A DNA stretch of 58,245 nucleotides. It comes from a virus. Numbering within the stretch: the stretch's first letter is position 1; the number at the start of each line of letters is the position of its first letter. Below the pieces are notes generated by a model. The model was given only the letters and a program-made list of their open reading frames with translations, did no database searches and was not told the DNA's origin. Made by a program: the position numbers and the translations under genes. The stretch lies in IMG/VR virus record IMGVR_UViG_3300025070_000036, positions 1 to 58,245 of that record. One strand, given 5' to 3'. Shown here piece by piece: positions 13,638 through 32,294 of the stretch.

Positions 13638-15194
13638 TTAATAATATCCGCCTCGGCGTCGTTTAAAGAACCGTTCTTCTTCTGGTTCGTCACTAGGTAA
13701 TCTGATAAATCCGCCCTGCCTAAACCGCATCAGAGCCATAACTGTAGAGTCCACGAGGTCATCATTACTCATAAATGGAAATCCTGCAATCTCTTCGACC
13801 ACTTCTTCAGCCCACCGTGTCTCTGGCACCCAGCAAATCCCAGATGCTACTATGTCTGCAACGGAATTAAGTCTAGCTAACTTATCTCCTGACCCCCTAT
13901 GTGGCGTGTACTCCGATACTGGCAAACCCATACGCCGCATCTCTTGATACAAGGCTACACCAGAACTTTTCTTCTCCACAATAAACGAATCAGGTTCCCA
14001 GTCGTGGTACTCTTCCATCGCAAGTTGTTTAAGTTCTGGGAACTCTATACGACGTTTTATACTATTTAACAATATAATATTGTAAGCTTCGGTCTCTTCG
14101 TTCAAGAAAACACCCCATGTAGTAAGTGCTGTGAAGTCTGCACGGTTATGTTTCTCGGCTGCCGCATCAAGCGACATGATAACATATTCACACGGAGGTG
14201 GTGAGTCGGGTATCCACTTGTTCCACCACTCCCGCTTGACCATAGCGGCCTCTTCGGTAGTGGGTTTCTGTTGATATTGGGAGTTCCATTGGAACACAGG
14301 CATTGATGCTTTGGTACGCAGTAAGGCTTCTAGGTCAAAGAACTCAGGCCATAGCGGTTTCTGTACAGTCTTTTTAGTTTTCTTATCTTCTATATCTAGT
14401 ATTGCAGGGAACTCGACCACATTATACTGGTCAGCTCGCTCATTTTTGCCCATATCACGCACCACTCGACCAGTTAGATCGTCTAAATGCCAACGTGTCT
14501 GTATAATTGCAACACGACCCCCGGGCATCAAACGTGTACGCGCACCGAATGTAAACCACTCATAGGCTTTCTCAAATACACCAAAGTTCCCGTTAATTAC
14601 ATCTTGCTCAGAATGTGGATCGTCCACAAGCAGTAAGTCAGCGCCACGCCCAGCCAGAGCAGAACCAATACCACACGCATAATATTCTCCCCCGACATTT
14701 GTATTCCACCTTCCTGCTGATTTACTATCTTGTGCTAATTTTACTGTAGGGAATATAGATCGGTACGCTTCCATAGCTATTAAGTTACGAACTTTACGTC
14801 CAAAATCCACCGCTAGGTCTGTCGTGTGTGAGACCATCATAACTTTCTTATCTGGGTTCCTACCTAAGAACCATGCTGGAAAGAAGATAGACACAAGCTG
14901 TGACTTACCATGTCGTGGTGGAATGTTGACACATATACGGTCTTCATCCCCAGATTCAATCGCCATAAGCATGTCTGCAAGGATTCTGTGGTGCTTTCCC
15001 ACTATGAACTCCGGCATCATTAGCTTACAAAACTCTATTAGGTCATCATATGCACCCTTATTAACGGCTCTGACGCTGAGTTCATCGACCATACGGTCAA
15101 TCTCAGCAACTTCTTCCTCACTAAACGAGTCTAAGTTGGCCAACATGACCTCAATCTCAGCTTCATCAAAGGCAAGAACGTCAGTCGTCATCAT
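13638..15194 (-). CDS. terL: Terminase large subunit
   Basis: The protein has an ATPase domain with Walker A PPRHGKSQ near residue 93 and Walker B LLLVDDPHSE near residue 190. The coupling region TRWHLDDLTGRVV lies near residue 240. The C-terminal nuclease domain shows VIMSLDAAAE near 343, VEKKSSG near 407 and DDLVDSTVMAL near 485, giving the acidic residues of an RNase H-type fold. It cuts and pumps DNA into the prohead. I chose the ATG at 15,194 (MMTTDVLAF), overlapping the TerS stop in ATGATGACTGA. Size is normal for the family. Confidence 0.93.
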   Translation of the reverse strand: MMTTDVLAFDEAEIEVMLANLDSFSEEEVAEIDRMVDELSVRAVNKGAYDDLIEFCKLMMPEFIVGKHHRILADMLMAIESGDEDRICVNIPPRHGKSQLVSIFFPAWFLGRNPDKKVMMVSHTTDLAVDFGRKVRNLIAMEAYRSIFPTVKLAQDSKSAGRWNTNVGGEYYACGIGSALAGRGADLLLVDDPHSEQDVINGNFGVFEKAYEWFTFGARTRLMPGGRVAIIQTRWHLDDLTGRVVRDMGKNERADQYNVVEFPAILDIEDKKTKKTVQKPLWPEFFDLEALLRTKASMPVFQWNSQYQQKPTTEEAAMVKREWWNKWIPDSPPPCEYVIMSLDAAAEKHNRADFTALTTWGVFLNEETEAYNIILLNSIKRRIEFPELKQLAMEEYHDWEPDSFIVEKKSSGVALYQEMRRMGLPVSEYTPHRGSGDKLARLNSVADIVASGICWVPETRWAEEVVEEIAGFPFMSNDDLVDSTVMALMRFRQGGFIRLPSDEPEEERFFKRRRGGYY

Positions 15195-15777
15195 CAAACC
15201 CAAATTCTTCGTTAATATCTATATCGTTCGGGGTCAAAACCACTGCATCTTCTACTTCAGGCTCTGGATTTACCAGTTTTGCAAGCTTGCTACGTAGTTT
15301 TTCTTTAATATCATCAGTGGTTTGGTGTGTAATCGTCACTTCGGACTTCTCTGTGAACAATCCCACGTCTGAAATCTTACCTAGAAGCTCTAATGCACGC
15401 ATTCGTACACGAGGATCAGGGTTTTCAGTCTCCATGACAAGCTTGTTGGTCACTAAATTGCGTAATTGCTTCGAAGATTCTACCACAGAGTGGTTAAATT
15501 CATCAATTATAGCACCTGTCATCTTAATAGAAGGGGGTGTTAGCTTTGCTGCACGCTTGTGTGTCACTTTTCGGGACGTTTTGTCGGGTTCTTGTGCAAA
15601 TGCGGTAGCCAAAACAGCGGCGACTTCCTTATCTCCCTCATCAGGAGTGGTGTCTAGCCCATGTTTCTCTAATTCTTCGACAGTTTTAGCCATCGCAACT
15701 GCACGATCTGGCAGATGTAACTGCTTTACTTCATCTTCTAAGGGTACACCCATCTCTGGGGTAAGATTCATTGTCAT
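15181..15777 (-). CDS. Terminase small subunit (putative)
   Basis: The 198-residue product begins MTMNLTPEMGVPLEDEVKQL. It has a helical middle (IIDEFNHSVVESSKQLRNLV, RVRMRALELLGKISDVGLFT) and a C-terminal TTDDIKEKLRSKLAKLVNP segment followed by an acidic tail ending DDDD. Position directly before terL and this helical plan fit a DNA-recognising small terminase. An upstream in-frame ATG at 15,837 lies inside the promoter -35 box, so I use 15,777. The acidic C-terminus may contact TerL. Confidence 0.65.
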   Translation of the reverse strand: MTMNLTPEMGVPLEDEVKQLHLPDRAVAMAKTVEELEKHGLDTTPDEGDKEVAAVLATAFAQEPDKTSRKVTHKRAAKLTPPSIKMTGAIIDEFNHSVVESSKQLRNLVTNKLVMETENPDPRVRMRALELLGKISDVGLFTEKSEVTITHQTTDDIKEKLRSKLAKLVNPEPEVEDAVVLTPNDIDINEEFGFDDDD

Positions 15778-15808
15778 AACACATCGCAGGTTGTTAACCG
15801 GTAACGTA

Positions 15809-15837
15809 ATAATAGGATACAAAAAATTTTTTATCAA
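15809..15837 (-). promoter_or_regulatory. Late-operon promoter before TerS
   Basis: On the minus strand, TTGATA (15,837-15,832) and TATTAT (15,814-15,809) are separated by exactly 17 bases; each box matches five of six consensus positions. Transcription would start near 15,802, some 25 bases before the TerS start. The spacer contains A5T6, which may bend the DNA. Confidence 0.65.
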
Positions 15838-15971: not shown

Positions 15972-15989
15972 TTCGGGCAGTTGCCCGAA
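15972..15989. repeat. 18-bp palindrome, copy 1
   Basis: TTCGGGCAGTTGCCCGAA: two perfect eight-base arms around GT. This copy lies in the divergent region, 124 bases before the first early start codon and 43 bases before the proposed early promoter. Confidence 0.9.
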
Positions 15990-16031
15990 TGGTATTTAAT
16001 GCTGTTTTGTTTGTTTTTATGGGTATACCTG

Positions 16032-16060
16032 TTGAATGGTGTAACATCTTATGGCATAAA
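16032..16060 (+). promoter_or_regulatory. Putative first early promoter
   Basis: TTGAAT (16,032-16,037), a 17-base spacer and CATAAA (16,055-16,060) lie 54 bases before the first early gene. TGG before the -10 box matches the extended -10 form seen at 7,459, 17,434 and 18,421. Each box matches four of six consensus bases, so it is weaker than the others. Confidence 0.45.
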
Positions 16061-16113
16061 TAACTTATTGGAACGCCACAATGGATAGCCAAGGTTCTTG
16101 AAAGGAACATATT

Positions 16114-16746
16114 ATGTCAAAGACTACTAAAACAACTAAGACTACAGTAACCGCATTAGAAAAGCTTGGTGCAGGTGCAGAGACTATTGGAGCATTCGAA
16201 GCAGGCGCGTTGGTTAAGATAGGCCAAGCGGCAAAAGGGGCAGATGATGTTATCAACCCGCTAATTCAAACTATGTACACCAACGGAATACGTGCTAACG
16301 ATTGGAAAGCAAAAGCGGGATTGCCTGCAGGTTCTAAAATACCTGCTGAACATACTAAAGCTTACCAAGAGCGTCTTGCATTTTTTGGCCAAGGTGTTTG
16401 GAGCGTAGCAGATAAGGTGGCACTAAAACAGCCTGCACCAAAAGTAGGCGACTTCAAAACAAAAGGTGATTTTCTAGCGGCAAAAGCAGAACGCAAAGCA
16501 TTACAAGACAAACCATCAACCAAGATGAAAAACCTTGCAAAACGTTTTGCCACACTAGCCAAGAATGACCCCGATAACAAAGAGGTCAACGGTGCTAATG
16601 ACAAAGCGACGGCGATTGAAACACTAGGAAAGAAAATTGCAGAGTGTATTAAGTTACTACAAAGCGACCGACCATTTCCAGATACGTTTGAACATGATAT
16701 GGCATGTTCAACTCTAATCGCCTACAAAAATACATACATCAAATAA
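16114..16746 (+). CDS. First early protein, unknown, 210 residues
   Basis: I do not recognise a family. The N-terminus is a Thr/Lys-rich tail (MSKTTKTTKTTVTALEKLGA). The rest is Lys and Ala rich and mostly helical, with a charged middle (GDFLAAKAERKALQDKPSTK) and a C-terminal segment with one Cys (HDMACSTLIAYKN). AGGA lies eight bases before the ATG. It stands alone between the early promoter and a strong terminator, so it is probably made early and in quantity. Host takeover is a common role for genes in this place, but that is only an inference. Confidence 0.7.
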   Translation: MSKTTKTTKTTVTALEKLGAGAETIGAFEAGALVKIGQAAKGADDVINPLIQTMYTNGIRANDWKAKAGLPAGSKIPAEHTKAYQERLAFFGQGVWSVADKVALKQPAPKVGDFKTKGDFLAAKAERKALQDKPSTKMKNLAKRFATLAKNDPDNKEVNGANDKATAIETLGKKIAECIKLLQSDRPFPDTFEHDMACSTLIAYKNTYIK

Positions 16747-16753
16747 TACTACC

Positions 16754-16788
16754 AACCCCAGAGCCAAACGGTTCTGGGGTTTTTCTTT
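16754..16788 (+). terminator. Terminator after first early gene
   Basis: AACCCCAGA and TCTGGGGTT form a nine-pair stem, extended inside by CC/GG around an AAAC loop, and are followed by TTTTTCTTT. It lies eight bases after the stop of the first early gene. Confidence 0.85.
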
Positions 16789-16796
16789 GTCCAAAA

Positions 16797-16814
16797 TTCG
16801 GGCAGCTGCCCGAA
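16797..16814. repeat. 18-bp palindrome, copy 2
   Basis: TTCGGGCAGCTGCCCGAA is fully symmetric over all 18 bases. It directly follows the terminator at 16,754-16,788 and is followed by CATTTGATACCAGT, a flank shared with the copy at 17,051. Confidence 0.9.
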
Positions 16815-16914
16815 ACATTTGATACCAGTTCTCTATCAGCGGTACGCATTACATGTTGCATCTGCATACTGCATGTGATAGCAAGTCATTACATTGCACC
16901 ACAATGCCTCACTA

Positions 16915-16939
16915 GACCCACTTCGGTGGGTCTTTTTTT
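16915..16939 (+). terminator. UUCG-loop terminator in gene-free region
   Basis: GACCCAC and GTGGGTC form a seven-pair stem closed by TTCG and followed by CTTTTTTTA-type U-run. No gene precedes it, so it probably ends a short untranslated transcript, or is a second stop for read-through from the first early gene. Confidence 0.85.
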
Positions 16940-16940
16940 A

Positions 16941-16958
16941 TTCGGGCAACTGCCCGAA
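16941..16958. repeat. 18-bp palindrome, copy 3
   Basis: TTCGGGCAACTGCCCGAA begins one base after the U-run of the terminator at 16,915. Its downstream flank (TATGATACCTGTTCCCAGAG) is related to that of the next copy. Confidence 0.9.
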
Positions 16959-17050
16959 AGTTATGATACCTGTTCCCAGAGTAGTGTTGCGCCTAACACG
17001 TTTAGTCATGTTCCAATGGGGTTTGCATATAAGATGTCACCATATTACAC

Positions 17051-17068
17051 TTCGGGCAACTGCCCGAA
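17051..17068. repeat. 18-bp palindrome, copy 4
   Basis: TTCGGGCAACTGCCCGAA with a downstream flank CATTTGATACCAGTACCCAG that matches copies 2 and 3. No start codon with a ribosome binding site follows; the iteron cluster does. Confidence 0.9.
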
Positions 17069-17105
17069 ACATTTGATACCAGTACCCAGAGTAGTGCTAC
17101 GCCCC

Positions 17106-17197
17106 TAAGTCATTGAAAACAAACAAATGTTCCAAATGTTCCAAGCTTGTTCCAAGCAAATCGGGCGTAAGTCATTGAAAACAAACAAATGTTCCAA
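17106..17197. repeat. Exact 30-bp direct repeat, period 62
   Basis: The 30 bases beginning TAAGTCATTGAAAACAAACA and ending ATGTTCCAA are identical at 17,106-17,135 and 17,168-17,197. Each unit ends in a TGTTCCAA motif and is followed by further motifs, so the whole block looks like a duplicated iteron set. Confidence 0.85.
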
Positions 17198-17392
17198 TGT
17201 TCCAATAATATTTATATATATATACTCCTAAGTTTGGAGAGTAAGAGAGAGGGTCTCTGCCCTAAAAACCACTTCTCAGATTTAGACATATACCTTTGGA
17301 ACAAAGGAACTTTGGAACATTCTTTTAAAATCAATGGGTTACATACATACACAACGTCACACGATGTCACAAAGCACCAATCACCACGAGAC

Positions 17393-17439
17393 ACCACAAT
17401 TCCCAATTACTTGACATTGCCTACTATATGTGGTAATAT
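17393..17439 (+). promoter_or_regulatory. Early promoter with paired operator half-sites, copy A
   Basis: TTGACA (17,411-17,416), a 17-base spacer and TAATAT (17,434-17,439) form a promoter with extended -10 TGG. ACCACA at 17,393 and TGTGGT at 17,429 form an inverted pair whose starts are 36 bases apart, flanking the -35 box. The same arrangement recurs at 18,378-18,426, including the shared core AATTACTTGACATT. Confidence 0.75.
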
Positions 17440-17519
17440 GTTATATGGTTGATAGGTAACAGCCCAACCAAGTCCCAATACCAACGTTACCACTTCCATC
17501 TTTCATTTAACTTTAACCT

Positions 17520-17537
17520 TTCGGGCAACTGCCCGAA
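17520..17537. repeat. 18-bp palindrome, copy 5
   Basis: TTCGGGCAACTGCCCGAA lies in the leader of the transcript from promoter A, ending 16 bases before the ATG at 17,554, with GGAG between. Confidence 0.9.
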
Positions 17538-17553
17538 TACATGGAGATACACT

Positions 17554-17784
17554 ATGCAACAAACAGTAACAGCCAGAGGTTTCGCTTGGAACTCAAGCAC
17601 ACGTACGTATTCAAATGAGGTACGTTTCGAAGCCCCAAACCTAATCGCCGCCAAGCGGTGGGTTGAAAGTAAATATCTGCAACTCGAGAACTTATCCATA
17701 TTGCAGACAAATGAAGAGTATCTACTACAAAGCTTACTCCTTCATTCTCCCGTGCAAGCTGTAACAAATGAGGTGATCGAATGA
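17554..17784 (+). CDS. Small early protein, 76 residues
   Basis: The ATG at 17,554 follows the palindrome and a GGAG; the frame is open further upstream but that part crosses the palindrome and promoter leader. The product (MQQTVTARGFAWNSSTRTYS, then AAKRWVESKYLQL) is a mixed alpha/beta small protein with no motif I know. Its end overlaps the next start by four bases. It is the first gene of the operon from promoter A. Confidence 0.6.
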   Translation: MQQTVTARGFAWNSSTRTYSNEVRFEAPNLIAAKRWVESKYLQLENLSILQTNEEYLLQSLLLHSPVQAVTNEVIE

Positions 17785-17984
17785 GTAAGAATGTTTGCGA
17801 TTGCTGTGGCGATACATTCTCAGTGCGCCGCGCAAAACTTGGATACACAGTGTGTTTAGATTGCGGTGACAATCAGGCGCAAAGCCAACGTGCAAGTTGG
17901 TGCGTAGTACCGCTTCCCAAACAAGGCTATACACTCGCCACTCGTAAAGAAGATTTGTTGTATCTTAACCAAAAACCACGATAG
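17781..17984 (+). CDS. DksA-type zinc-finger miniprotein
   Basis: The 67-residue protein carries CDCCGDTFSVRRAKLGY and VCLDCGD, giving a four-Cys finger at about C6, C9, C25 and C28 of the DksA/TraR type. The C-terminus (WCVVPLPKQGYTLATRKEDL) matches a tail I have seen in small phage proteins of this kind. In the DksA family the finger helps contact RNA polymerase; here only the finger remains, without the coiled-coil tip. It overlaps the previous gene by ATGA. Confidence 0.65.
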   Translation: MSKNVCDCCGDTFSVRRAKLGYTVCLDCGDNQAQSQRASWCVVPLPKQGYTLATRKEDLLYLNQKPR

Positions 17985-17993
17985 GAGATTGTG

Positions 17994-18359
17994 ATGAAAT
18001 TCGAAAACTACAGTGTAGTGAAATGCCCTATGGGTATAGCTATCAAACCTAACAATGGTGACAGCGATTTAGAAGTGACCTTAACTATAGAAAATGATAC
18101 TCTATGTGTAACTTTGCACGCACACGATAATGATTGGTGTGGCCCTGACCACATCGTAAGTGAAATCCAACACCCAATCAAATCAGCCCACGACGAGCGT
18201 AAGGCTAAAGAAGAAGCTTCTCGCCAACGTATCCAACAGTTTAGCAAAGGTTATTACGATGGTTGGAACAGTGAAGATTTTAAATGTGACAAATGCGGTG
18301 AGCCGTTAGGAGCAGATGATCTTGATGAATGTGGTGATTGCCACGACAATACACAATAA
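17994..18359 (+). CDS. Early zinc-finger protein with scaffold-derived segment
   Basis: The ATG at 17,994 sits seven bases after AGGAG; a GTG three bases earlier is too close. Residues 1-60 form a beta-rich domain (LEVTLTIENDTLCVTLHAHD). Residues 66-89 (HDERKAKEEASRQ followed by RIQQFSKGYYD) match the scaffold protein in swapped order. Residues 101-118 hold CDKCGEPL and CGDC, a zinc-binding pattern. The function is unknown. The match to a late structural gene at the DNA level is the notable feature. Confidence 0.7.
   Translation: MKFENYSVVKCPMGIAIKPNNGDSDLEVTLTIENDTLCVTLHAHDNDWCGPDHIVSEIQHPIKSAHDERKAKEEASRQRIQQFSKGYYDGWNSEDFKCDKCGEPLGADDLDECGDCHDNTQ
18189..18261 (+). repeat. Permuted copy of scaffold-gene segment
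   Basis: Segment A (18,189-18,227, starting CACGACGAGCG) is directly followed by segment B (18,228-18,261, starting CGTATCCAACA). In the scaffold gene (10,207-10,272, minus strand) B precedes A. Differences are 4 of 39 and 5 of 34 bases by hand count. Both copies are read in the same frame. Confidence 0.8.
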
Positions 18360-18377
18360 TACACATAACAACGCGAT

Positions 18378-18426
18378 ATACCACAGAACTGAATTACTTG
18401 ACATTCCTCGCTACCTGTGGTATATT
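18378..18426 (+). promoter_or_regulatory. Early promoter with paired operator half-sites, copy B
   Basis: TTGACA (18,398-18,403), a 17-base spacer and TATATT (18,421-18,426) with extended -10 TGG make a strong promoter. ATACCACAG (18,378) and CTGTGGTAT (18,415) are perfect nine-base complements around the -35 box, the second overlapping the -10. ACCACA and TGTGGT start 36 bases apart, exactly as in copy A. A dimeric or looping regulator is the natural reading. Confidence 0.78.
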
Positions 18427-18465
18427 ATATGTATGGGTCGAACACCCTGAATCTTTTCAAACCCT

Positions 18466-18483
18466 TTCGGGCAGATGCCCGAA
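18466..18483. repeat. 18-bp palindrome, copy 6
   Basis: TTCGGGCAGATGCCCGAA, followed by CAACAAACGGAGA and the ATG at 18,502. It lies about 33 bases after the expected transcript start of promoter B. Confidence 0.9.
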
Positions 18484-18501
18484 CAACAAACGGAGACTAC
18501 T

Positions 18502-19485
18502 ATGACAGAACAAAATACGCAGATCGATATTGAAGACTATATCGCGTCCTCGATACACGACGAACTCAATTCTCAGAATACTGCCTCACAACAAAAAGCA
18601 CTCGCAGGGTTGATTACTGAAGCACCAAGTATATCTTCCGCGGCTATGATCGTTGACTTCAATGCTAGTGTATGGACAGCACGTAAGAAAGACATGAAAG
18701 CGTCCGACGATATTGCAGCTATGAATGGCGCTGATGTAGGTATCGCTGATGTACGTAAGAAGTTACTAGGTAACTGTGACGAGCTGATCGCAGTACAGAA
18801 GTTTGCGGCTAACGTACGCAACATACACTATAGTATGACATTACCTTGGTCGGACAATGGGTCTCGCCTACTGACCACGCAACAATACTTCAAGTACAAC
18901 GAAGTTATGAGCCAACTACAAACAGAGTTTCATACTCTTGTTGATAGTTTCTTACAGGCGTACCAATGGGAAGTATCCAAAGCGCAAGCCAAGTTGGGTG
19001 CTATGTTCAATCGTGACGAGTATCCGACAAGTGAAGCTTTGCAAGATAAGTTTCGGTTTCGTGTCTCGTACATACCGCTACCTGACAGTGGTGATTTCCG
19101 TATTGACATTGGCAACGAAGCCTTGGAACAAATACAATCCCAATATCAATCGCATTACACGCAAGCTATCAACTCAGCTATGTCTGATCTATGGCACAAG
19201 TTACATGATAACCTCGTAACACTTGTTCGACAACTCGACGTTAATGAAGAGGGCAAGGGCAATCGCTTGTATGATACTGTCTTTGATCGAGCTATCGAAC
19301 TGGTATCGATGTTGGGTACGTGTAACGTGACAGGCGACAGCCAAATGGAAGCCATGCGCAGAAAACTAGAAGATGCGTTCTATGGACTAAACCTTGATCA
19401 AATCAAGAACTCACCGAGCTTGCGTGAAGATACACGCAGTAAACTATCAGAAGCAATCGCCGCGCTACCAAGCTTGGATATGTAA
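18502..19485 (+). CDS. DUF3150-like protein of MoxR/VWA cassette
   Basis: The ATG at 18,502 follows GGAG after the palindrome. The 327-residue product is mostly helical, with a middle segment SQLQTEFHTLVDSFLQAYQW and an FRVSYIPLPDSGDFRI strand region. Size, plan and position before a MoxR-type ATPase and a metallopeptidase-VWA protein fit DUF3150, a phage and bacterial family that accompanies such cassettes. The biochemical role is not known. Name is inferred mainly from context and general resemblance. Confidence 0.55.
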   Translation: MTEQNTQIDIEDYIASSIHDELNSQNTASQQKALAGLITEAPSISSAAMIVDFNASVWTARKKDMKASDDIAAMNGADVGIADVRKKLLGNCDELIAVQKFAANVRNIHYSMTLPWSDNGSRLLTTQQYFKYNEVMSQLQTEFHTLVDSFLQAYQWEVSKAQAKLGAMFNRDEYPTSEALQDKFRFRVSYIPLPDSGDFRIDIGNEALEQIQSQYQSHYTQAINSAMSDLWHKLHDNLVTLVRQLDVNEEGKGNRLYDTVFDRAIELVSMLGTCNVTGDSQMEAMRRKLEDAFYGLNLDQIKNSPSLREDTRSKLSEAIAALPSLDM

Positions 19486-19493
19486 TTTAACCT

Positions 19494-19511
19494 TTCGGGC
19501 AGTTGCCCGAA
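19494..19511. repeat. 18-bp palindrome, copy 7
   Basis: TTCGGGCAGTTGCCCGAA, followed by CAACAAACGGAGA and the ATG at 19,531. The whole leader is nearly identical to that of copy 6. Confidence 0.9.
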
Positions 19512-19530
19512 CAACAAACGGAGAAAGACT

Positions 19531-20622
19531 ATGCACAACGCAACACAAATGTACGCACTAACCCTTGATCAGTGTGTCAAATCAATCGCCGCAGTGGGTA
19601 CTAAACGTACTATACTTATGCAAGGTGACATGGGTGGTGGCAAATCATCTACATTGCACACACTATCAGCGATGTTTCCTAACCATGTACCATGTTACTT
19701 TGATTGCACCACGAAAGACCTTGGTGACTTGAACTTACCTAACATGGCAGTGATGAATGAGAAGGGCTATGTTACCTTTGTACCTAACGAAGAACTAGGT
19801 GCGCACCTTGGCAAGCCTGTCATTATTATGATTGACGAACTAGGTAAAGCTAACCCTGCTGTTAAGAACGCACTCTTACGTGTGATGCAAGAACGTACAG
19901 TTGGTAGTATCAAGTTACACCCTGACAGTATTGTGTACGCCACAACGAACAAAGGTGCAGAAGGTGTGGGTGACTTGCTTCAACCACATGCACGTAATCG
20001 CATATCAACAGTGATTGTTCGCAAGACCGATCATATGGACTGGATTGAGTGGGGTATCAACAACAATATCGACCCTACTATACTTGGTTGGGTCAAAGAT
20101 AACCCGCAGTTGTTTGCCGCGTTCGAAGATGTAAAAGACCCGTCTGAGAACCCATACATATTCCACCCAAAAGAACAGCGAGCCGCGTTTGTTACACCTC
20201 GTTCATTACATGCGGCCTCTGACATCTTACACGTACGTGATCAATTCGACGACCAGACACTTACGGCTCTACTGATGGGTACTATCGGTGATCGCGGTGC
20301 GATGGACTTGATGGCGTTTGTGAAACTGGCTGATCAACTACCAAGCTTACAGTCTATCAAAGACGACCCGATGAATGCGATTGTTCCTAATAGTGCCGCC
20401 GCTGTGTGTATGGTTGTGTATCGTACACTTGCCGCGTTGGAAAGTACGTGGGTCAATGCGTGGATGGATTACATGCCTCGCCTCGATACAGAAGCACAAG
20501 GTATGTTCGCCAATGGTGTACGTGCGCCTAAGTATTCAAAGCAATCTATGGTTATGACTAACAAGAAATTTACCAAGTGGGCTATGGATAACAACTACAT
20601 GTTTGCCGCAGACAAGAAATAG
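19531..20622 (+). CDS. MoxR-type AAA+ ATPase
   Basis: The 363-residue protein has Walker A GDMGGGKS at residues 32-39, Walker B IIMIDE at 99-104, a sensor-1 stretch VYATTNKG near 139 and an arginine-containing HARNRI near 160. This is the order of the MoxR/CobS group of AAA+ ATPases, which work with VWA proteins as chaperones or metal-insertion motors. The partner VWA protein is encoded at 21,060. A lid domain follows (residues 220-350). Host or virion substrate is unknown. Confidence 0.85.
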   Translation: MHNATQMYALTLDQCVKSIAAVGTKRTILMQGDMGGGKSSTLHTLSAMFPNHVPCYFDCTTKDLGDLNLPNMAVMNEKGYVTFVPNEELGAHLGKPVIIMIDELGKANPAVKNALLRVMQERTVGSIKLHPDSIVYATTNKGAEGVGDLLQPHARNRISTVIVRKTDHMDWIEWGINNNIDPTILGWVKDNPQLFAAFEDVKDPSENPYIFHPKEQRAAFVTPRSLHAASDILHVRDQFDDQTLTALLMGTIGDRGAMDLMAFVKLADQLPSLQSIKDDPMNAIVPNSAAAVCMVVYRTLAALESTWVNAWMDYMPRLDTEAQGMFANGVRAPKYSKQSMVMTNKKFTKWAMDNNYMFAADKK

Positions 20623-20632
20623 GAGAATGGAA

Positions 20633-21058
20633 ATGAGTAAATATAAACCGTGGACTGACGCAGATGATGCGGAACTGGTATTGATGCGCGAAGCACGCAC
20701 GCCAACGAAAGAAATCGCAATCGCATTGGGTCGAACACCCTCGGCTGTGATGAACCGTATAAGTGCAAAGGGTATACCCTATGGTAAGTTATACACAAAG
20801 GAACAACTAGAAGGTTTCTCACAAACTAAGGCGCGTGACCTAGAAGAACTTACGTTCCGTGAAGTTGTGGATACAGCGTTTGCCAAGCACGAGATCGAGT
20901 TTGGTGCGCCTGATAGAAAGTCCGAAGACCTTGAAAGGTCTAAGCCAAAGGCTGACACATATGGTTTCGGGCGGTTGCCCGAAATGCTTAATCAAATGGA
21001 AAGAGACATCAAGCGTAAACCACAATGGTTCAAAGCTATGATGTGGTGGAGGAAGTAA
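20633..21058 (+). CDS. Myb/SANT-like DNA-binding protein
   Basis: The ATG at 20,633 lies seven bases after AGGAG. Residues 4-45 (KPWTDADDAELVLMREARTP, TKEIAIALGRTPSAVMNRIS) match a Myb/SANT-type helix-turn-helix in which W and spaced helices bind DNA. The C-terminal part is charged and ends with a Trp-rich tail (FKAMMWWRK). The gene contains a variant of the 18-bp palindrome, coding GFGRLPE. It sits between the ATPase and the peptidase-VWA gene and may regulate the cassette; that is inference. Confidence 0.6.
   Translation: MSKYKPWTDADDAELVLMREARTPTKEIAIALGRTPSAVMNRISAKGIPYGKLYTKEQLEGFSQTKARDLEELTFREVVDTAFAKHEIEFGAPDRKSEDLERSKPKADTYGFGRLPEMLNQMERDIKRKPQWFKAMMWWRK
20966..20983. repeat. 18-bp palindrome, copy 8 (inside a gene, variant)
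   Basis: TTCGGGCGGTTGCCCGAA differs from the consensus by one A-to-G change at the inner end of the left arm. It is the only copy inside a coding region and lies 77 bases before the next start codon. Confidence 0.85.
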
Positions 21059-21059
21059 C

Positions 21060-22340
21060 ATGTTATCAATAGGTAAAACACTTACACCCGAACAGCGGTT
21101 ATCGAAAGCCGTTGTTGACATCATGGGTAAAGCCCATGCGTTGTCTGGTGTTATTATGATCGGTGATCGTAGTATCGAATACAATGAAGATAAAGTACCA
21201 ACAGCTTGCACTAATGGACGTGACGAGTGGTATGGTGCTAAGTTTATTGAACCGCTAAACGATGCGCAACTAAGGTTTCTTGTGCTACATGAAGTGTATC
21301 ACAAACTGTATCGACATCTGACAACGTGGCAACACCTGTACAGAATACACCCACAGTTGGCTAACATCGCGTGTGATTATGTAATCAACGTGAAGATCAT
21401 GGACGAGTTCAGCGAGAATGGTTGGGTCGAGATGATCGAAGGTGGTTGCTACGATGTGAAATATCGTGGGTGGGATGCCGCCAAGGTATTCTGGGAACTA
21501 CACAAGCAGTTACAAAAACCACCCCGGGGTGGCGGTGGTTCGGGTTCACCTGATAACGAAGCACAAGATGGTGATGGAACTACCCCTGAGCATTCAACTG
21601 GTTTAGAAAACACAGGAGTAGGTGATCTACCCCAAGGGTTCGATGCGCATGATTGGGACGGTGCGGAAGAAATGACCGCAGACGAACAGCGTGAACTTGC
21701 TCGAGAGATCGACGAAGCAGTACGCCAAGGTGCATTGGTTGCAGGTAAGATGGGTAGCGGTGGTAGCCGTGACCTAGAAGAATTGCTACAACCCAAAGTG
21801 GATTGGCGCGAAGTGTTGCGTGAGTTTGTGCAAGATACATGTGCAGGGTCTGACTATTCAACATGGAAGAAACCAAACAGACGCTATCTAAGCTCTGGCA
21901 TATACATGCCTACTGGTATCAGTGAACAAGTAACATGTTTAGCAGAACACAATGACATGTCTGGTTCAATCGGTGCGCGTGAGCAACAGATAATGATTAG
22001 TGAATTGGTCGGTATCTGTGAAACGGTCAAGCCAGAAGAACTACACGTAAGTTACTGGGACACCGAAGTGACTGGGTATGAGAGGTATGACAACCACGAA
22101 CTACATACAGTGGCAGAACGTACCACACCTGTAGGTGGCGGCGGTACATGTGTTGAATGTGTGCCTGAGTACATGAAGAAAAACAATATCAATCCACAAG
22201 CGTCTATCGTGTTTACAGATGGTGATTTGTATGGCGGTTGGGGCGAGTGGGATCACCCTGTGTTGTGGGTGATTGTCGATAATGAAGGCGCACAGCCTAC
22301 ACATGGTAAAGCGTTACACGTATCCTCGGGAGATTTGTGA
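21060..22340 (+). CDS. Metallopeptidase-VWA fusion protein
   Basis: Residues 77-81 are HEVYH, an HExxH zinc site, within a domain resembling the DUF2201 putative metallopeptidase. A Gly/acid-rich linker follows (PRGGGGSGSPDNEAQ). The C-terminal half is a von Willebrand A-like domain with DMSGS near residue 299, VGGGGT near 355 and FTDGDLYGGWG near 383, the positions of a MIDAS metal site. Together with the MoxR ATPase it forms a known type of two-part machine. GGAGG precedes the ATG. Confidence 0.8.
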   Translation: MLSIGKTLTPEQRLSKAVVDIMGKAHALSGVIMIGDRSIEYNEDKVPTACTNGRDEWYGAKFIEPLNDAQLRFLVLHEVYHKLYRHLTTWQHLYRIHPQLANIACDYVINVKIMDEFSENGWVEMIEGGCYDVKYRGWDAAKVFWELHKQLQKPPRGGGGSGSPDNEAQDGDGTTPEHSTGLENTGVGDLPQGFDAHDWDGAEEMTADEQRELAREIDEAVRQGALVAGKMGSGGSRDLEELLQPKVDWREVLREFVQDTCAGSDYSTWKKPNRRYLSSGIYMPTGISEQVTCLAEHNDMSGSIGAREQQIMISELVGICETVKPEELHVSYWDTEVTGYERYDNHELHTVAERTTPVGGGGTCVECVPEYMKKNNINPQASIVFTDGDLYGGWGEWDHPVLWVIVDNEGAQPTHGKALHVSSGDL

Positions 22341-22531
22341 TGAGCAAGATTGGTAACTATGTAGTAGGACTACAGGAGCAAGAGGTGGACGAGCTAGAGC
22401 AGATGTTAGATGATGTATTCTACAAAACATTTGGTCGTCGTCCCCTCAAGGGTGAAGAACTCAAAAAGCTACAGCGTCGTACCTACATGCCCGAGCTAGA
22501 TGATGATGGTAAGTTTCGGAGGGAAGAATGA
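22340..22531 (+). CDS. Small acidic helical protein
   Basis: The ATG overlaps the stop of the VWA gene as TGATG. The 63-residue product (QEQEVDELEQMLDDVFYKTF, then GEELKKLQRRTYMPELDDDG) is charged and helical with no known motif. Its end overlaps the next start by four bases. It is likely a helper of the cassette or simply co-expressed. Confidence 0.55.
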   Translation: MSKIGNYVVGLQEQEVDELEQMLDDVFYKTFGRRPLKGEELKKLQRRTYMPELDDDGKFRREE

Positions 22532-22770
22532 CCTTCTGGCACATGCTCATAATATCTTACGCAGTCATACCTGACAGCGGTGTGTTTATCACAAAGGAAT
22601 ACGTGTACAAAGATTACCACACATGTATCCAAGCAAGTGATGAAATGTACCCTGCAATATACGCCACGTACAAAGACAGCATGGCAAGTTGCGTAAAGAC
22701 GAGTCTTATATCTGGTGGTTTGAAGCCACGGTTAAGACCTAAAAACTTAGGGGGCAATCGCGCAAGATAA
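22528..22770 (+). CDS. Small protein with hydrophobic N-terminus
   Basis: The 80-residue protein starts MTFWHMLIISYAVIPDSGVF, which could be a short signal or membrane anchor. Next comes a segment with two Cys (DYHTCIQASDEMYPAIYATY, MASCVKTSL) and a basic C-terminus. It overlaps the previous gene by ATGA. Its spaced cysteines could form a disulphide if exported. The family is unknown. Confidence 0.5.
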   Translation: MTFWHMLIISYAVIPDSGVFITKEYVYKDYHTCIQASDEMYPAIYATYKDSMASCVKTSLISGGLKPRLRPKNLGGNRAR

Positions 22771-22862
22771 GTATCGAAACAACAGACTGCCCGTGTGCGG
22801 TTTAAACAGATACTCATCTTGCTTGCCCCTTATAAACAACCTGACAAATACGTCAATAAACT

Positions 22863-22880
22863 TTCGGGCATCTGCCCGAA
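22863..22880. repeat. 18-bp palindrome, copy 9
   Basis: TTCGGGCATCTGCCCGAA, followed by CAACAAATGGAGAATAACTA and the ATG at 22,900. The leader again matches copies 6 and 7. Confidence 0.9.
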
Positions 22881-22899
22881 CAACAAATGGAGAATAACT

Positions 22900-23964
22900 A
22901 TGACTATGGTATACACAAATTTTAAATCTTTCGCGGAAGTGGAGGCACACTACGACAGTATCAAACCACTGGTATCAAAGTGTCACCCACGCGAACAAGA
23001 CATTCGACCCATCGGAGATCGCAAACGAAAACACGAACGTATTAAAAAGATCAATCGTAATTGCTACGTGATGATGGACGGGTACTACAGCGGTGATGAT
23101 GTGTTTCGTTGGTGGTTTCTTAATAAAGACACCGCGATAAACATAACCGAGAAAGAGCTTATTAGGTTAGCTCCTATCGTGTGGCGTAGACACAAGGACG
23201 GTACAGAAACTGTCAAGTTTCGTAATGGTACAGGCCAAGGTCTACACAATGGTAGGTACTCGTTCATAAGACGTAATACACCTAGTGGTATGTACTTTAA
23301 TATATCCAATGGTAAACAGTTTGTTAATGGAGTGTATCTCGCAAAAGGTAGCTCAATCACCAAAGATGATTACACCAGAAAACCTGACGATAGTGGTTAT
23401 GGAAGTTGGTGGCAATCTTACGTGAAGGAATGTACATACCGTGATGATGGGTGTGCTGTTACGTTTAAACTGGTAAAAGTAGATGGTCGAATTGCGCCAG
23501 ATTGGGAAGTAGTAACTGGCGGTAAGCCGTTACCCAAACCACCTAGACAAGTAGTGGACAAGAAAGCAAAGGCTTCTTTGAAAGATCACATAGTTAAGTT
23601 CCGTGAATGGGGTATGACTATGTATCCGATGTTACCAAAAGATACGTACGAGTACGAACAACGTATGCGTAACGAGACCAAAGAATACGTAGCGGATAGA
23701 ATGGGTAACCCTCATTACTATGCTTGGAGTTTACTAAGTATCTTTCTTGATCACCCTACAATCACACGCGAGATTGTAAAAGATGAACAACACCCACTAC
23801 GTCTGCACTTAGCGTATGGTATATTATCAGATTACATGGAGCATACCCTACGTATGGGTGAAGAACAGGGCTTAGACGACAAAGAGATACAGGCAAGAAT
23901 AATGTCTGCATTCAACCATAAAATCAATCGCACATGCGGTTTCTTATCAACAGTGAAAGGTTAA
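22900..23964 (+). CDS. Early protein of unknown function, 354 residues
   Basis: The ATG at 22,900 follows GGAG after the palindrome. The protein is basic and aromatic (NRNCYVMMDGYYSGDDVFRW), with a helical, charged C-terminal half (YEQRMRNETKEYVADRMGN, YGILSDYMEHTLRMGEE). I recognise no domain. It forms a pair with the 307-residue protein that starts four bases after its stop; both have basic, mixed alpha/beta character. A shared role is likely but unidentified. Confidence 0.65.
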   Translation: MTMVYTNFKSFAEVEAHYDSIKPLVSKCHPREQDIRPIGDRKRKHERIKKINRNCYVMMDGYYSGDDVFRWWFLNKDTAINITEKELIRLAPIVWRRHKDGTETVKFRNGTGQGLHNGRYSFIRRNTPSGMYFNISNGKQFVNGVYLAKGSSITKDDYTRKPDDSGYGSWWQSYVKECTYRDDGCAVTFKLVKVDGRIAPDWEVVTGGKPLPKPPRQVVDKKAKASLKDHIVKFREWGMTMYPMLPKDTYEYEQRMRNETKEYVADRMGNPHYYAWSLLSIFLDHPTITREIVKDEQHPLRLHLAYGILSDYMEHTLRMGEEQGLDDKEIQARIMSAFNHKINRTCGFLSTVKG

Positions 23965-23968
23965 AACA

Positions 23969-24892
23969 ATGGGTTATAAACATAAGACAGTAGCGGAAGC
24001 TACAGTGGAGAGTGAAGAGTACGTCGAACGTTCGCGTAGGTATAATCAGCCTACTCAGGGAAAACCAGAACTTGTAGAATTTCGAACGGCTATCGAGAAC
24101 AACCACATCAAGACTATGCACCGTACTGCAAACACAGCATACGTATACATTGAAGGTGAACAGATGGTGCTTGGTTGGATTGGCTATGGAGACTTTCAGT
24201 CTACAATAAGTGGTGCTGATAAGTATGTAGTATATGCAAGAAACATACGTAACATGCGACACGTCGAAGGGACAGATGAATACTTCATGCGTTCAGCACT
24301 ACGTTTAGATAAAGCTATCAAGAACTGTAAGGCCAACTTGATACGGTATACCTCGGAGGAAACGGGTTGTGCATTGGCAAGGCAACCCAAACGAGATTTT
24401 GCAAGGTTATCCCGTGAAGCTGATGAAGCGTACATGGAGGTGCGACGAAACATTGGGTTGGTAGATAGGACAAATACCGAACTGGGTTTGGAGCTTATAA
24501 CATTAGTAAAAAATGGTTACGTGTTCAGACAACCAGAGCTTCACGAGAACATAAGTAAGCTATCGCACTTGAAAGATCAGTACAACAAACACTCAAGAAA
24601 CAACCCACGCCCTATGGACTTTGTGCGTATATACAAAAACCCACGCGAAGAGTTACGTGCTGACGTAGTAAAACTTGTTAACGTGAATGCGTATACCTCA
24701 TGGTCTGATAACAAACCGGTAGCGGATAGGGTATCGGGTAAAGATATGTACCTCGCGGAAACACTACCCGAAAGTATCTTAGGTAAGATTGCAGTTATGG
24801 CTATGTGTGAAGACGGGCAGTTTGTTGAAGACGTTGGCTACAAGGTTGACGACACTATGTTCTACTTCTACCCAGAAGAACCTACTACGTGA
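23969..24892 (+). CDS. Early protein of unknown function, 307 residues
   Basis: The product has a beta-containing N-terminal part (YVYIEGEQMVLGWIGYGDFQ), a helical middle (ALRLDKAIKNCKANLIRYTS) and an acidic C-terminus. No known motif is visible. It is co-transcribed with the 354-residue protein and overlaps the next gene by four bases. Nothing in the sequence indicates an enzyme. Confidence 0.65.
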   Translation: MGYKHKTVAEATVESEEYVERSRRYNQPTQGKPELVEFRTAIENNHIKTMHRTANTAYVYIEGEQMVLGWIGYGDFQSTISGADKYVVYARNIRNMRHVEGTDEYFMRSALRLDKAIKNCKANLIRYTSEETGCALARQPKRDFARLSREADEAYMEVRRNIGLVDRTNTELGLELITLVKNGYVFRQPELHENISKLSHLKDQYNKHSRNNPRPMDFVRIYKNPREELRADVVKLVNVNAYTSWSDNKPVADRVSGKDMYLAETLPESILGKIAVMAMCEDGQFVEDVGYKVDDTMFYFYPEEPTT

Positions 24893-25140
24893 GTGTGCTT
24901 GGCGATATAACGTATCACGTACAGATACATAAGCATACTAAACACGTCAATGTATCATCAATAGGTATCGACAGGGTTGACTCGGATGTTTTGCATCACT
25001 ACAATTCTGTAGACGAGCTACCCGAATGGATACAAACTAAGCTGTCGATGCTTATGATGTTAGACCTACCACCTCCACTAAACGATGTGGATGGTGTGGG
25101 TAGTAGGCTAGGCCAGTACACTTACTGGATATATAAATAA
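24889..25140 (+). CDS. Small early protein, GTG start
   Basis: Translation probably starts at the GTG at 24,889, overlapping the previous TGA as GTGA. The 83-residue product (YHVQIHKHTKHVNVSSIGID, then EWIQTKLSMLMML) is His and Val rich at the N-terminus. No family is recognised. The palindrome copy 10 begins four bases after its stop. Confidence 0.5.
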   Translation: MSVLGDITYHVQIHKHTKHVNVSSIGIDRVDSDVLHHYNSVDELPEWIQTKLSMLMMLDLPPPLNDVDGVGSRLGQYTYWIYK

Positions 25141-25143
25141 CCT

Positions 25144-25161
25144 TTCGGGCAACTGCCCGAA
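25144..25161. repeat. 18-bp palindrome, copy 10
   Basis: TTCGGGCAACTGCCCGAA, followed by ACTGGTATCAACGGAGAAT and the ATG at 25,185. ACTGGTATCAA is the reverse complement of the TTGATACCAGT flank of copies 2 and 4. Confidence 0.9.
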
Positions 25162-25184
25162 ACTGGTATCAACGGAGAATTACT

Positions 25185-25523
25185 ATGACCCCAGAAGCAA
25201 AAGTTAAAAAGACCGCTGTAAAACATCTGAAAGATATAGGTGCTTACTATTTCTTTCCTGCCACTGGTGGCTACGGCAAAAGCGGTGTACCCGACATCAT
25301 AGCATGTTACCAAGGATTATTCTTTGGACTTGAATGCAAAGCAGGCAAGAATACGCCTACACCTCTGCAAGAGAAAAACTTGAAAGAGATCAACGAAGCA
25401 GGTGGGTTTGACTTAGTCGTACACGAAGAAAACGTACACCAACTGTCTCTGCAAATGGATAAATGGGTAACTATCTGTAACAATACCAACGTAATACCCC
25501 AAGCTGTGAGTGGGCGCGATTGA
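25185..25523 (+). CDS. VRR-NUC type nuclease
   Basis: The 112-residue protein shows the compact VRR-NUC fold of the PD-(D/E)xK superfamily. An N-terminal helix EAKVKKTAVKHLKDIGAYYF is followed by GVPD at 34-37 and ECK at 50-52 as the metal-binding residues, then TPLQ. Phage members are stand-alone nucleases thought to act on branched DNA. GGAG precedes the ATG. The size is normal for stand-alone phage versions. Confidence 0.85.
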   Translation: MTPEAKVKKTAVKHLKDIGAYYFFPATGGYGKSGVPDIIACYQGLFFGLECKAGKNTPTPLQEKNLKEINEAGGFDLVVHEENVHQLSLQMDKWVTICNNTNVIPQAVSGRD

Positions 25524-25614
25524 CATAGTTCGCATAAACCTCAGCAGTATGGGCAGGACACTCCAATTTCTGTTTGTAATTCAGCAGAAACCTTTCAAGA
25601 CCTGTGACCATACC

Positions 25615-25637
25615 GACTAGGCCACGTACGGCTAGTC
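25615..25637. other. Hairpin in 157-bp gap
   Basis: GACTAG-CC and GG-CTAGTC can pair around ACGTAC, with one bulged G at 25,621. It lies between the VRR-NUC stop and the next start codon. No U-run follows, so it is not a standard terminator; a leader structure or protein site is possible. Confidence 0.4.
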
Positions 25638-25680
25638 CTATACTCTGCGTATGGGCATTAAATTAAAGGAGATCACATAC

Positions 25681-25866
25681 ATGACGCGTGAAGAAGCCGA
25701 AGACAACTATCGAATAAAGTGGGAGAAACAAATAAAAAAAGATATGGCAGATAACTCTGCACTACGTGCGAGACAAAGACCTATTAGACCCCTCGGTGCA
25801 AGCCAAGAAGGTGGGTCTAAAGGAGGCAAAGCAAATAAGAAAAGACCTTATGTCTCTATCCGTTAG
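25681..25866 (+). CDS. Small basic early protein
   Basis: I chose the ATG at 25,681, nine bases after AGGAG; an upstream ATG at 25,651 has no ribosome binding site. The 61-residue product starts with a charged helix (MTREEAEDNYRIKWEKQIKK) and ends with a Gly/Lys-rich tail (GGSKGGKANKKRPYVSIR). It overlaps the next gene by 17 bases. No domain is recognised. Confidence 0.5.
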   Translation: MTREEAEDNYRIKWEKQIKKDMADNSALRARQRPIRPLGASQEGGSKGGKANKKRPYVSIR

Positions 25867-26035
25867 TCACTGCCCTCACTGTGTTAGGAAGTTAGAAGTA
25901 ATAGATTCACGTCCACACTTTGCTTATGGCTTTCCAACAGTAAGACGTAGGCGTGCGTGTACTAAATGTGATTTTAAAATAACAACCATAGAGTTACCGA
26001 TAGAACTAGGTAACGAAATCTTTGAAGATGAATAG
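25850..26035 (+). CDS. NrdR-like zinc-ribbon miniprotein
   Basis: The 61-residue product contains CPHC at residues 8-11, EVIDSRPHF near 16-24 and VRRRRACTKCDFKITTIE at 31-48. This closely follows the N-terminal zinc ribbon of NrdR, the bacterial repressor of ribonucleotide reductase genes (VIDSR, RRRR and a second CxxC before FTT). The NrdR ATP-cone domain is absent. It may bind NrdR-type sites or act as a decoy; that is inference. The ATG at 25,850 overlaps the previous gene; a longer N-terminal form is possible. Confidence 0.6.
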   Translation: MSLSVSHCPHCVRKLEVIDSRPHFAYGFPTVRRRRACTKCDFKITTIELPIELGNEIFEDE

Positions 26036-26044
26036 GAGAACAAC

Positions 26045-26473
26045 ATGAAAAAATCAAAAGCAGATAAAATCTGGGCTTATAAAATAGCAAACCCATCAGC
26101 TACAAACAGAGAGGTAGCTAACGCATCTGGTGCGCACGTTACGTATGTTGCATCGCTTATGCGTAAGACAGGTACGCCCAAAGAAATACTGGAAGCACCA
26201 AAGTCGCCTAAACGTGGTGACATCTTAGACACTGCTAAAGAATACGTGACTAAAGATCGTGCATCTGATCACGGGGATATGGAAGATAACTTTGAGATGA
26301 TTGCAGATTTTTGGTCAACGTATTTAGATAGGCGTATAGTGGCATATGACGTGGGTGCTATGATGGCGTTATTAAAAGTAGCGCGTATTAGATCAAACCC
26401 TAAACACCCTGACAACTGGGTCGATGGTGCAGGGTACATGGCATGTGGTGGTGAGATTGCAGGTAAACGCTAA
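26045..26473 (+). CDS. HTH plus DUF6378-like protein
   Basis: Residues 1-45 look like a small helix-turn-helix (NPSATNREVANASGAHVTYV). The rest (DTAKEYVTKDRASDHGDMED, then NFEMIADFW and MMALLKVARIRSNPKHPDNW) matches a phage domain I know as DUF6378, an all-helical domain with a conserved DNWVDGAGY-type end. Some all-helical phage proteins of this shape are nucleotide pyrophosphatases, but no catalytic set is certain here. GGAG precedes the ATG and polymerase follows three bases later. Confidence 0.65.
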   Translation: MKKSKADKIWAYKIANPSATNREVANASGAHVTYVASLMRKTGTPKEILEAPKSPKRGDILDTAKEYVTKDRASDHGDMEDNFEMIADFWSTYLDRRIVAYDVGAMMALLKVARIRSNPKHPDNWVDGAGYMACGGEIAGKR

Positions 26474-26475
26474 AC

Positions 26476-28305: not shown

Positions 28306-28970
28306 CAAAAGTAGCACCGTGGTCTTTCAGTAAGATTAAAGCATTTGAGCAATGCCCCAAGCAATTCTACCATGACAAGATACTCAAAGAGTTCCCGTTT
28401 AAAGAGACAGATGCTACCCTGTATGGAACAGCTTTTCACAAAGCCGCAGAAGATTTTATTGGTAAGGACACTCCTCTACCTAAGAAGTTTAGCTTTGCGG
28501 AAGAGGCACTGGTATCGCTGAAAAACCGCACAGGCGAAAAACTATGCGAAATAAAACTAGGTATAAACTCTGATTTAGAAGCATGTGATTTCTACGCCAA
28601 AGATGTTTGGTTTCGTGGTATCGCTGACTTAGTTATACTGGACGGTGATCTCGCATGGGTAGTAGATTACAAGACAGGCAAGTCTTCTAAGTATGCAGAC
28701 AAAGGACAGCTAGAGTTAATGGCGTTGGGTTTGTTTGCTAAGTACCCCCAAATTAAGACTGTACGTGCAGGGTTATTTTTTGTTGTATGTAATGACTTGG
28801 TAAAAGACACATACATGGAGTATGATAGCCATAAGCTGTGGGGGAAATGGTTAAGTAAGTACGACCAGATGAAGGCCGCGGCTGAAAACGATGTGTGGAA
28901 CGCACGGCCTAACGGCTTATGCAGACGACACTGCCCTGTAATTGAATGTGTTCACAATGGAGCAAATTAA
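28302..28970 (+). CDS. Cas4/RecB-like nuclease with probable Fe-S cluster
   Basis: The GTG start overlaps the polymerase stop as GTGA. Residues 7-27 (WSFSKIKAFEQCPKQFYHDK) form the start of the RecB/Cas4 domain with C18. The metal site is seen in RGIADLVI near 108 and DYKTGK near 123. C207, C211 and C216 in GLCRRHCPVIECVHNG complete a four-Cys set, as in the iron-sulphur cluster of Cas4 and AddB nucleases. It likely trims DNA ends during recombination or replication. No other CRISPR gene or array is present. Confidence 0.82.
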   Translation: MTKVAPWSFSKIKAFEQCPKQFYHDKILKEFPFKETDATLYGTAFHKAAEDFIGKDTPLPKKFSFAEEALVSLKNRTGEKLCEIKLGINSDLEACDFYAKDVWFRGIADLVILDGDLAWVVDYKTGKSSKYADKGQLELMALGLFAKYPQIKTVRAGLFFVVCNDLVKDTYMEYDSHKLWGKWLSKYDQMKAAAENDVWNARPNGLCRRHCPVIECVHNGAN

Positions 28971-29242
28971 TGCCATATAAAAATCCCAAAGATCGTAAGA
29001 AACAAAAGAATGCACCTGTAGGTAGTAAGGCGTTTGAGGCACGTATGGAACGGCAACGCGCCAGACGTAAGGTAGATAAGAATGGTGTAGATAAAAACAA
29101 AAACGGTAAAGCCGACAAACGTGAAGGTAAAGATGTTAGTCACAAGAAAGCCTTGTCCAAGGGTGGGTCTAACAAAGATGGTATACGTATAGAAAGTTCA
29201 AGTAAGAACCGCGCACGTAACTATAAAAAGAAGAAAAAATAG
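28970..29242 (+). CDS. Small basic HNH-like protein with EF-hand-like loop
   Basis: The ATG overlaps the nuclease stop as TAATG. Residues 1-35 are strongly basic. Residues 41-52 (DKNKNGKADKRE) fit the spacing of a calcium EF-hand loop. DVSHKKALSKGGSNKDG (55-71) followed by SSKNRARN resembles the core of small HNH nucleases, although only one His is clear. I know this as a phage family often labelled HNH-like. Catalysis is unproven. It ends in a run of lysines. Confidence 0.6.
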   Translation: MPYKNPKDRKKQKNAPVGSKAFEARMERQRARRKVDKNGVDKNKNGKADKREGKDVSHKKALSKGGSNKDGIRIESSSKNRARNYKKKKK

Positions 29243-29260
29243 TTCGGGCAACTGCCCGAA
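29243..29260. repeat. 18-bp palindrome, copy 11
   Basis: TTCGGGCAACTGCCCGAA starts directly after the TAG of the HNH-like gene, is followed by AGGAG, and ends 11 bases before the GTG at 29,272. It is the last copy in the window. Confidence 0.9.
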
Positions 29261-32275: not shown

Positions 32276-32294
32276 ATTATGACGAGTGGTGACA

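Follow-up and report, generated by a model that had tools for sequence, protein, structure and literature searches.

The window, which is the whole stretch of DNA analyzed here (58,245 bases of virus record G000), contains an intergenic repeat array that very probably serves as a replication origin. The repeats are made up of two boxes (A and B) and surround an A/T-only run. Judging from the sequence, we put the probability at about 0.86 that the array is an origin at which the phage primase-helicase binds box B, a host bending protein binds box A, and the A/T stretch is opened for two-way synthesis. The sequence-only reading of this DNA had also proposed a candidate replication origin here, and the proposal is supported by a plan that is kept in relatives and by a box B that covaries with the primase-helicase.

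The head genes and the TerL gene are oriented leftward, and the early block (16.1 to 35.1 kb) is oriented rightward. The early block encodes DUF3150, AAA ATPase, and VWA proteins, a family A polymerase, an exonuclease, an SNF2 helicase, and a gp2.5-like SSB. Its final gene encodes a fusion of an AEP primase with a DUF927 helicase. The array sits in a gap close to the start of this block. The gap (16747-17553; 807 bp) contains no convincing gene, in agreement with the sequence-only reading. That reading placed the array beside the replication genes, which does not hold. The neighbors are the DUF3150, AAA-ATPase, and VWA genes, and the polymerase, helicase, and primase genes start 9 to 15 kb downstream. 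A four-cysteine small protein (17781-17984) directly follows the array, is conserved there in most relatives, and has no family match. An Rfam search of 15.8 to 18.6 kb gave no score near the gathering cutoff.

The array contains two direct units, then the A/T run, then one inverted unit. Each unit contains a box A (TAAGTCATTGA in the direct units) and TGTTCC boxes (box B), at a constant distance of 20 bp from box A. Direct unit 1 (plus strand) contains box A at 17106-17116 and a box B array at 17126-17155, with TGTTCCAA at 17128, 17137, and 17148. Direct unit 2 (plus strand) lies 62 bp past unit 1. It contains box A at 17168-17178 and a box B array at 17188-17205, with TGTTCCAA at 17190 and 17198. 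The A/T-only run (17204-17224, no strand) is the proposed unwinding element. The inverted unit (minus strand) contains a box B array at 17296-17321, with TGTTCCAA at 17296-17303 and 17312-17319 and a degenerate AGTTCC, read by eye, between these two copies (17306-17311). Its box A (17329-17341) reads AATCAATGGGTTA on the plus strand. An outlying TGTTCCAA copy (17009-17016, plus strand) was found 92 bp upstream of unit 1. The working element spans about 17106-17341. The box A heading each unit and the inversion of the third unit had been missed by the sequence-only reading.

Box A is called IHF-like on the basis of WATCAANNNNTTR, which we take to be the IHF consensus. AATCAATGGGTTA is the only perfect match to it in the window, and the other two of the three box A copies (TAAGTCATTGA) have one mismatch each. 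A sigma-70-like promoter (TTGACA-17-TAATAT; 17411-17439, plus strand) lies just past the array and would serve the rightward early genes; promoter-like matches around the array are no commoner than in shuffles.

The repeats exceed what shuffled sequence contains. The six direct and two inverted motifs described earlier are all present, as 8 of the 12 exact copies of TGTTCCAA in the window fall at 17009-17319 (six plus, two minus). They form the strongest 8-mer cluster in the whole window. Whole-window shuffles contained a mean of 2.25 copies and at most 7, and shuffles of the 807-bp gap contained a mean of 0.06 and at most 2 (1,000 shuffles) against the 8 observed. The exact 30-bp direct repeat was recovered at 17106-17135 and 17168-17197 as reported; in 500 shuffles, exact direct repeats reached at most 13 bp. 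The A/T-only run is also present, with limits slightly wider than the 17205-17221 first given. Its 21 nt make it the longest such run of the window, and runs of at least 21 nt appeared in 5 of 1,000 shuffles of the gap. GC skew, proposed earlier as a check, has a local minimum 0.4 to 3.6 kb from the array in each of 12 records. The signal is weak, and we do not count it as evidence because skew follows gene direction.

The earlier start of the cluster, 16941, belongs to a different repeat, the intergenic palindrome TTCGGGCA-NN-TGCCCGAA. It is present in 10 intergenic copies from 15972 to 29260, all in the early block (15972, 16797, 16941, 17051, 17520, 18466, 19494, 22863, 25144, and 29243). 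Several copies lie just ahead of a ribosome site. In relatives the palindrome is replaced by their own early-block words, namely, TTTAGGGA (6 to 7 copies), TGTTAGTG (3 to 9), TTTACGGA (10), and GTTAGGGA (7). These words resemble a set of operators or of RNA hairpins, specific to each phage. Just left of the array, the palindrome is followed three times (16797-16849, 16941-16993, and 17051-17103) by a second element, (T)GATACCAGTN.. with AGTAGYG..CGC. Relatives contain 2 to 4 copies of it at the same place. It has no Rfam match.

Relatives were collected through the ATPase protein and not through the repeats. The sequence-only reading had named related phages without the repeats as a finding that would speak against an origin. 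At least six copies of one hexamer within 400 bp were found in 33 of 53 loci (window included) and in 0 of 1,060 shuffles. The remaining 20 loci contained fewer than six copies, and one of them (L107) had none visible. The box B word varies among relatives (TGTTCC, AGTTCC, TGTACC, TGTTAC, TGTTCT, and TGTTCG). Box A, the A/T run, the inverted unit, and the location are retained while box B drifts. The 24 distances between direct units were 51 (3), 62 (8), 63 (11), 73 (1), and 84 (1) bp, in steps of about one helical turn.

When the protein-found loci were anchored on box B, the profile upstream of it was T A A n T n n T T G A W W. This has the spacing of the presumed IHF consensus on the opposite strand. 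Of 48 non-redundant units, 17 contain the strict core YAANNNNTTGA precisely 20 bp ahead of box B, with 0.01 expected.

A nucleotide search of 50,697 phage records with 15.8 to 19.6 kb of the window retrieved no relative, and a search with the array alone retrieved only two 28-bp chance-like matches. Six named relatives picked by TerL or primase (023Pt_psg01, DSL-LC04, HTVC027P, HTVC023P, MinM2, and Rollin) contain no box A with a repeat array in the stretches read. Synechococcus phage MinM2 contains a GTCATAC repeat cluster just before its terminase genes (L224:18120-18470). We found no description of this origin or of its recognition code in the literature searched, which was largely without subscription papers.

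The drift of box B was compared with the primase-helicase. In the first set, the array and the primase-helicase C terminus were sought in 29 records, and the 24 with a clear array were scored. The five dropped (G013, G014, G016, G017, and G055) lacked a clear array in the part read. A later set of 14 further records came from scans for other box B words and from searches; one more, G062, was dropped from these 15 for its missing C terminus. The box class of a record is its commonest word by count. One record, G030, is nearly identical to the window. In the first set, Lys902 was present in 16 of 16 TGTTC-type records and in 0 of 8 TGTACC, TGTTAC, or TGTAAC records. In the later set, it was present in 4 of 4 TGTTC-type records and in 0 of 10 others. 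Over all 38 records, it accompanied 20 of 20 TGTTC-type boxes versus 0 of 18 other boxes. Column 902 is the only one of 935 columns with a phi of 1.0 in the 38 records (columns 102 and 387 are also perfect in the later 14 taken alone), and the next, 917, has a phi of 0.67. At residue 917, 11 of 14 TGTTCC records have Trp (the rest Ser, Asn, or His), 6 of 6 TGTTCT/G records have Asp or Glu, and 16 of 18 records with other boxes have Arg or Lys (the remaining two His and Tyr). Among the dropped records, viewed afterwards, G014 (TGTTCG, Lys) and G016 (TGTCG, Arg) would fit the rule. G013, G017, and G055 contain Lys902 with an array that is not classable.

The nearest pairs from different box classes are 87% identical in residues 200 to 840, yet they differ at 902 and 917. 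A tree of residues 360 to 835, which leaves out the C-terminal domain, contains seven changes of box class, and Lys902 changes each time. At least four of these changes fall on strongly supported branches. The records are not independent; the strongly supported branches leave four pairs, of which four agree (sign test, P = 0.125).

None of the ten other proteins scored came as high. The best column phi was 0.63 for the ATPase (31 records), 0.61 for TerL (26), 0.73 for DUF3150 (31), 0.49 for the candidate TerS (27), 0.71 for VWA (27), 0.68 for orf 22900 (21), and 0.71 for orf 23969 (17). With few records, it was 0.82 for the polymerase (13) and 0.77 for the SSB (8). The small proteins near the array had been suggested as the binders. 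The zinc-ribbon protein reached 0.60 (23 records) and shows no comparable covariation; orfs 16114, 17554, and 17994 were matched in only 3 to 4 records and were left out of column scoring. Anatomy, conservation, helical spacing, and the covariation of box B with residue 902, less tightly with 917, are read from the sequences themselves. Because box B drift tracks residue 902, the primase-helicase is named as the proposed box B reader, and its winged helix is the part proposed to do the reading.

The primase-helicase gene (32286-35093, plus strand) encodes the proposed initiator. According to the sequence-only reading, no early gene was a known iteron-binding initiator; this gene product is a DUF927 helicase of the SaPIbov1 Rep/SCCmec Cch type. 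It scored 79.8 bits against Pfam DUF927, above the curated cutoff of 22.6. It is not a member of the NCBIfam equivalog SCCmet_Cch1 (21.6 bits against a cutoff of 700). The Cch and SaPIbov1 Rep chains were matched by sequence profile at 3e-13 and 6.6e-22. An AlphaFold2 model built with 30 natural sequences had a pLDDT of 82.5. It matched SCCmec Cch (5dgk) with a Z score of 29.8 (rmsd, 6.1; 475 residues) and SaPIbov1 Rep (8tch) with a Z score of 25.9 (rmsd, 8.8; 454 residues). MCM proteins scored far lower (Z of about 11 to 12). The two alignments cover model residues 361 to 929, so the fold of the helicase core and the C-terminal domain is common to them. The C-terminal domain by itself gave weak Z scores of 4.6 (Rep) and 4.3 (Cch). 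The best structural match of the primase part was the PrimPol of cyanophage S-2L (6zp9; Z score, 18.7). The C-terminal winged helix, the proposed box B reader, is encoded at 34836-35054 (plus strand; residues 851 to 923, 858 to 922 in the model). In the model, K902 is on the first wing strand (899 to 903) and W917 is on the second (916 to 922).

From these data we infer binding, the assignment of box A to IHF, opening of the strands, and two-way replication. The C-terminal winged helix would bind the box B words on either side of the A/T-rich stretch. Host IHF or a similar bending protein would occupy the box A of each unit and wrap the DNA. Two helicase assemblies, one per side, would open the A/T stretch and load themselves. 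The primase part would then start synthesis in both directions.

A scan with a pattern that contains box A retrieved at least 119 stretches, and 74 new loci were examined. The neighboring proteins of the window are present in 67 of the 74, among the matches listed. Three loci from other phages (L321:4000-4400, L330:8300-8600, and L332:1880-2350) show this plan built from different words (TGTTGCGC, GGGACA, and GGTTGTTAC). Their arrays adjoin D5/VapE/DUF5906-type primase-helicases, which have no profile relation to the window protein. Therefore, more than one helicase family goes with the plan among these loci, which were themselves found by a pattern containing box A.

A scan of the genomes of 84,980 species gave 11 matches. 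Only L398 contains an array, and the other ten are chance-like. In 394 further genomes from the family of L398, no second array was found, and a match in G331 is the sequence of the chance-like L407. L398 is a 5.8-kb contig of a Rhodobacteraceae bin. It contains a full TGTTAC-type array at 968-1205, between an AlpA-like ORF (by eye, no family match) and an HGGxSTG protein. It contains the end of an integrase at the contig start (NCBIfam domain match, 2.4e-11) and no primase, replication, or other phage gene. L398 is a candidate minimal satellite that would borrow a phage initiator. The origin word and the primase-helicase wing could even be an evolving lock and key, driven by origin-stealing satellites that phages escape through box B and residue 902, which we consider doubtful. 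If it were true, L398 would be copied by the enzyme of a helper phage, and box B and residue 902 would have changed together as an escape.

The array might be read as a packaging site (cos or pac). The cosB site of lambda-like phages contains terminase-binding repeats and an IHF site beside the terminase genes. The array, too, has an IHF-like box alongside its repeats. Its distance is 2 kb to TerL and 1.3 kb to a candidate small terminase (15181-15837, assigned by position and by eye). It is near the terminase in most relatives, and the L330 array lies between primase-helicase and terminase genes. However, neither terminase follows the box B word as the primase-helicase does (phi of at most 0.49 for the small and 0.61 for the large subunit, versus 1.0), and the layout matches island origins. 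The ends of other records fall in quite different genes (within the primase gene in G025), although contig ends are little proof. A packaging role is highly improbable.

It is quite improbable that the array is a control region only, with operators for the early promoter at 17411 that are bound by the primase-helicase or another protein. The promoter-like site lies about 70 bp past the inverted unit, and a similar one appears by eye in relatives. However, a primase-helicase is unlikely as a pure repressor, and three composite units, a central A/T run, and helical phasing exceed what a promoter needs. L398 contains the whole array and no phage gene to regulate. Origin and control roles may coexist. 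IHF-like boxes with short phased repeats also resemble attP, where IHF and arm-type sites would make the array a site for site-specific recombination. This is extremely unlikely, given that the 30 window proteins scanned against PHROGs include no integrase and that the repeats covary with the primase-helicase instead. The best reading is still an origin that would be bound by a self-loading primase-helicase, laid out like phage-inducible island origins and 15 kb from the gene of its initiator.

With this reading, a large group of uncultivated marine phages gains a proposed replication origin and a proposed, named initiator. Origin specificity would come down to two wing residues, whose changes accompany those of the origin word in at least four to seven independent cases. 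Recognition between origin and initiator becomes testable with natural pairs. The helper phages of satellites that have nothing but an origin may also be traceable in this way.

Phage P4 alpha is a primase-helicase fusion whose C-terminal domain reads the ori/crr repeats, with an SF3-type helicase. The phage protein described here would work alike, a likeness of function. SCCmec Cch (5dgk) and SaPIbov1 Rep (8tch) share its fold over residues 361 to 929 and Pfam DUF927. In contrast to them, the phage protein has an N-terminal AEP primase, and identity is at most 17%. The PLE origin, with its RepA_N initiator and the ICP1 nuclease Odn, is a satellite iteron origin pressed to change its iterons (PMC7145576, PMC8263062). 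The PLE initiator, however, is of another family, and the PLE origin belongs to the satellite and not to the phage (PMC7145576, PMC8263062).

The closest likeness in layout is to the origins of phage-inducible islands (PICIs), both SaPIs and Gram-negative PICIs. These always contain two iteron sets around an A/T-rich region, a layout said to occur in no other known elements (PMC6092414). According to PMC7581432, SaPI Rep recognizes its iteron origin through its C-terminal domain, and Cch, which has a DUF927 domain, is a relative of SaPIbov1 Rep. The array is like these origins in having a set of short iterons on each side of an A/T-rich stretch (PMC6092414, PMC7581432) and in its proposed DUF927/SaPIbov1 Rep-type helicase initiator, whose C-terminal domain would do the reading here as well. 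Phages of about 60 kb would also use an origin plan that has been ascribed to phage-inducible islands alone. There are differences from the island origins. The array is in a 58-kb phage of its own and not in an island, and the primase is fused to the helicase in the phage protein. The phage iteron sets are headed by an IHF-like box at a fixed helical distance, and the accounts consulted describe no box A for PICIs. The origin of the islands is immediately 3' of rep, whereas the array is at 17.1 to 17.34 kb and the gene is at 32.3 to 35.1 kb. Because it is 15 kb from the gene, we do not file the array as a PICI origin, only as an origin that would work like one.
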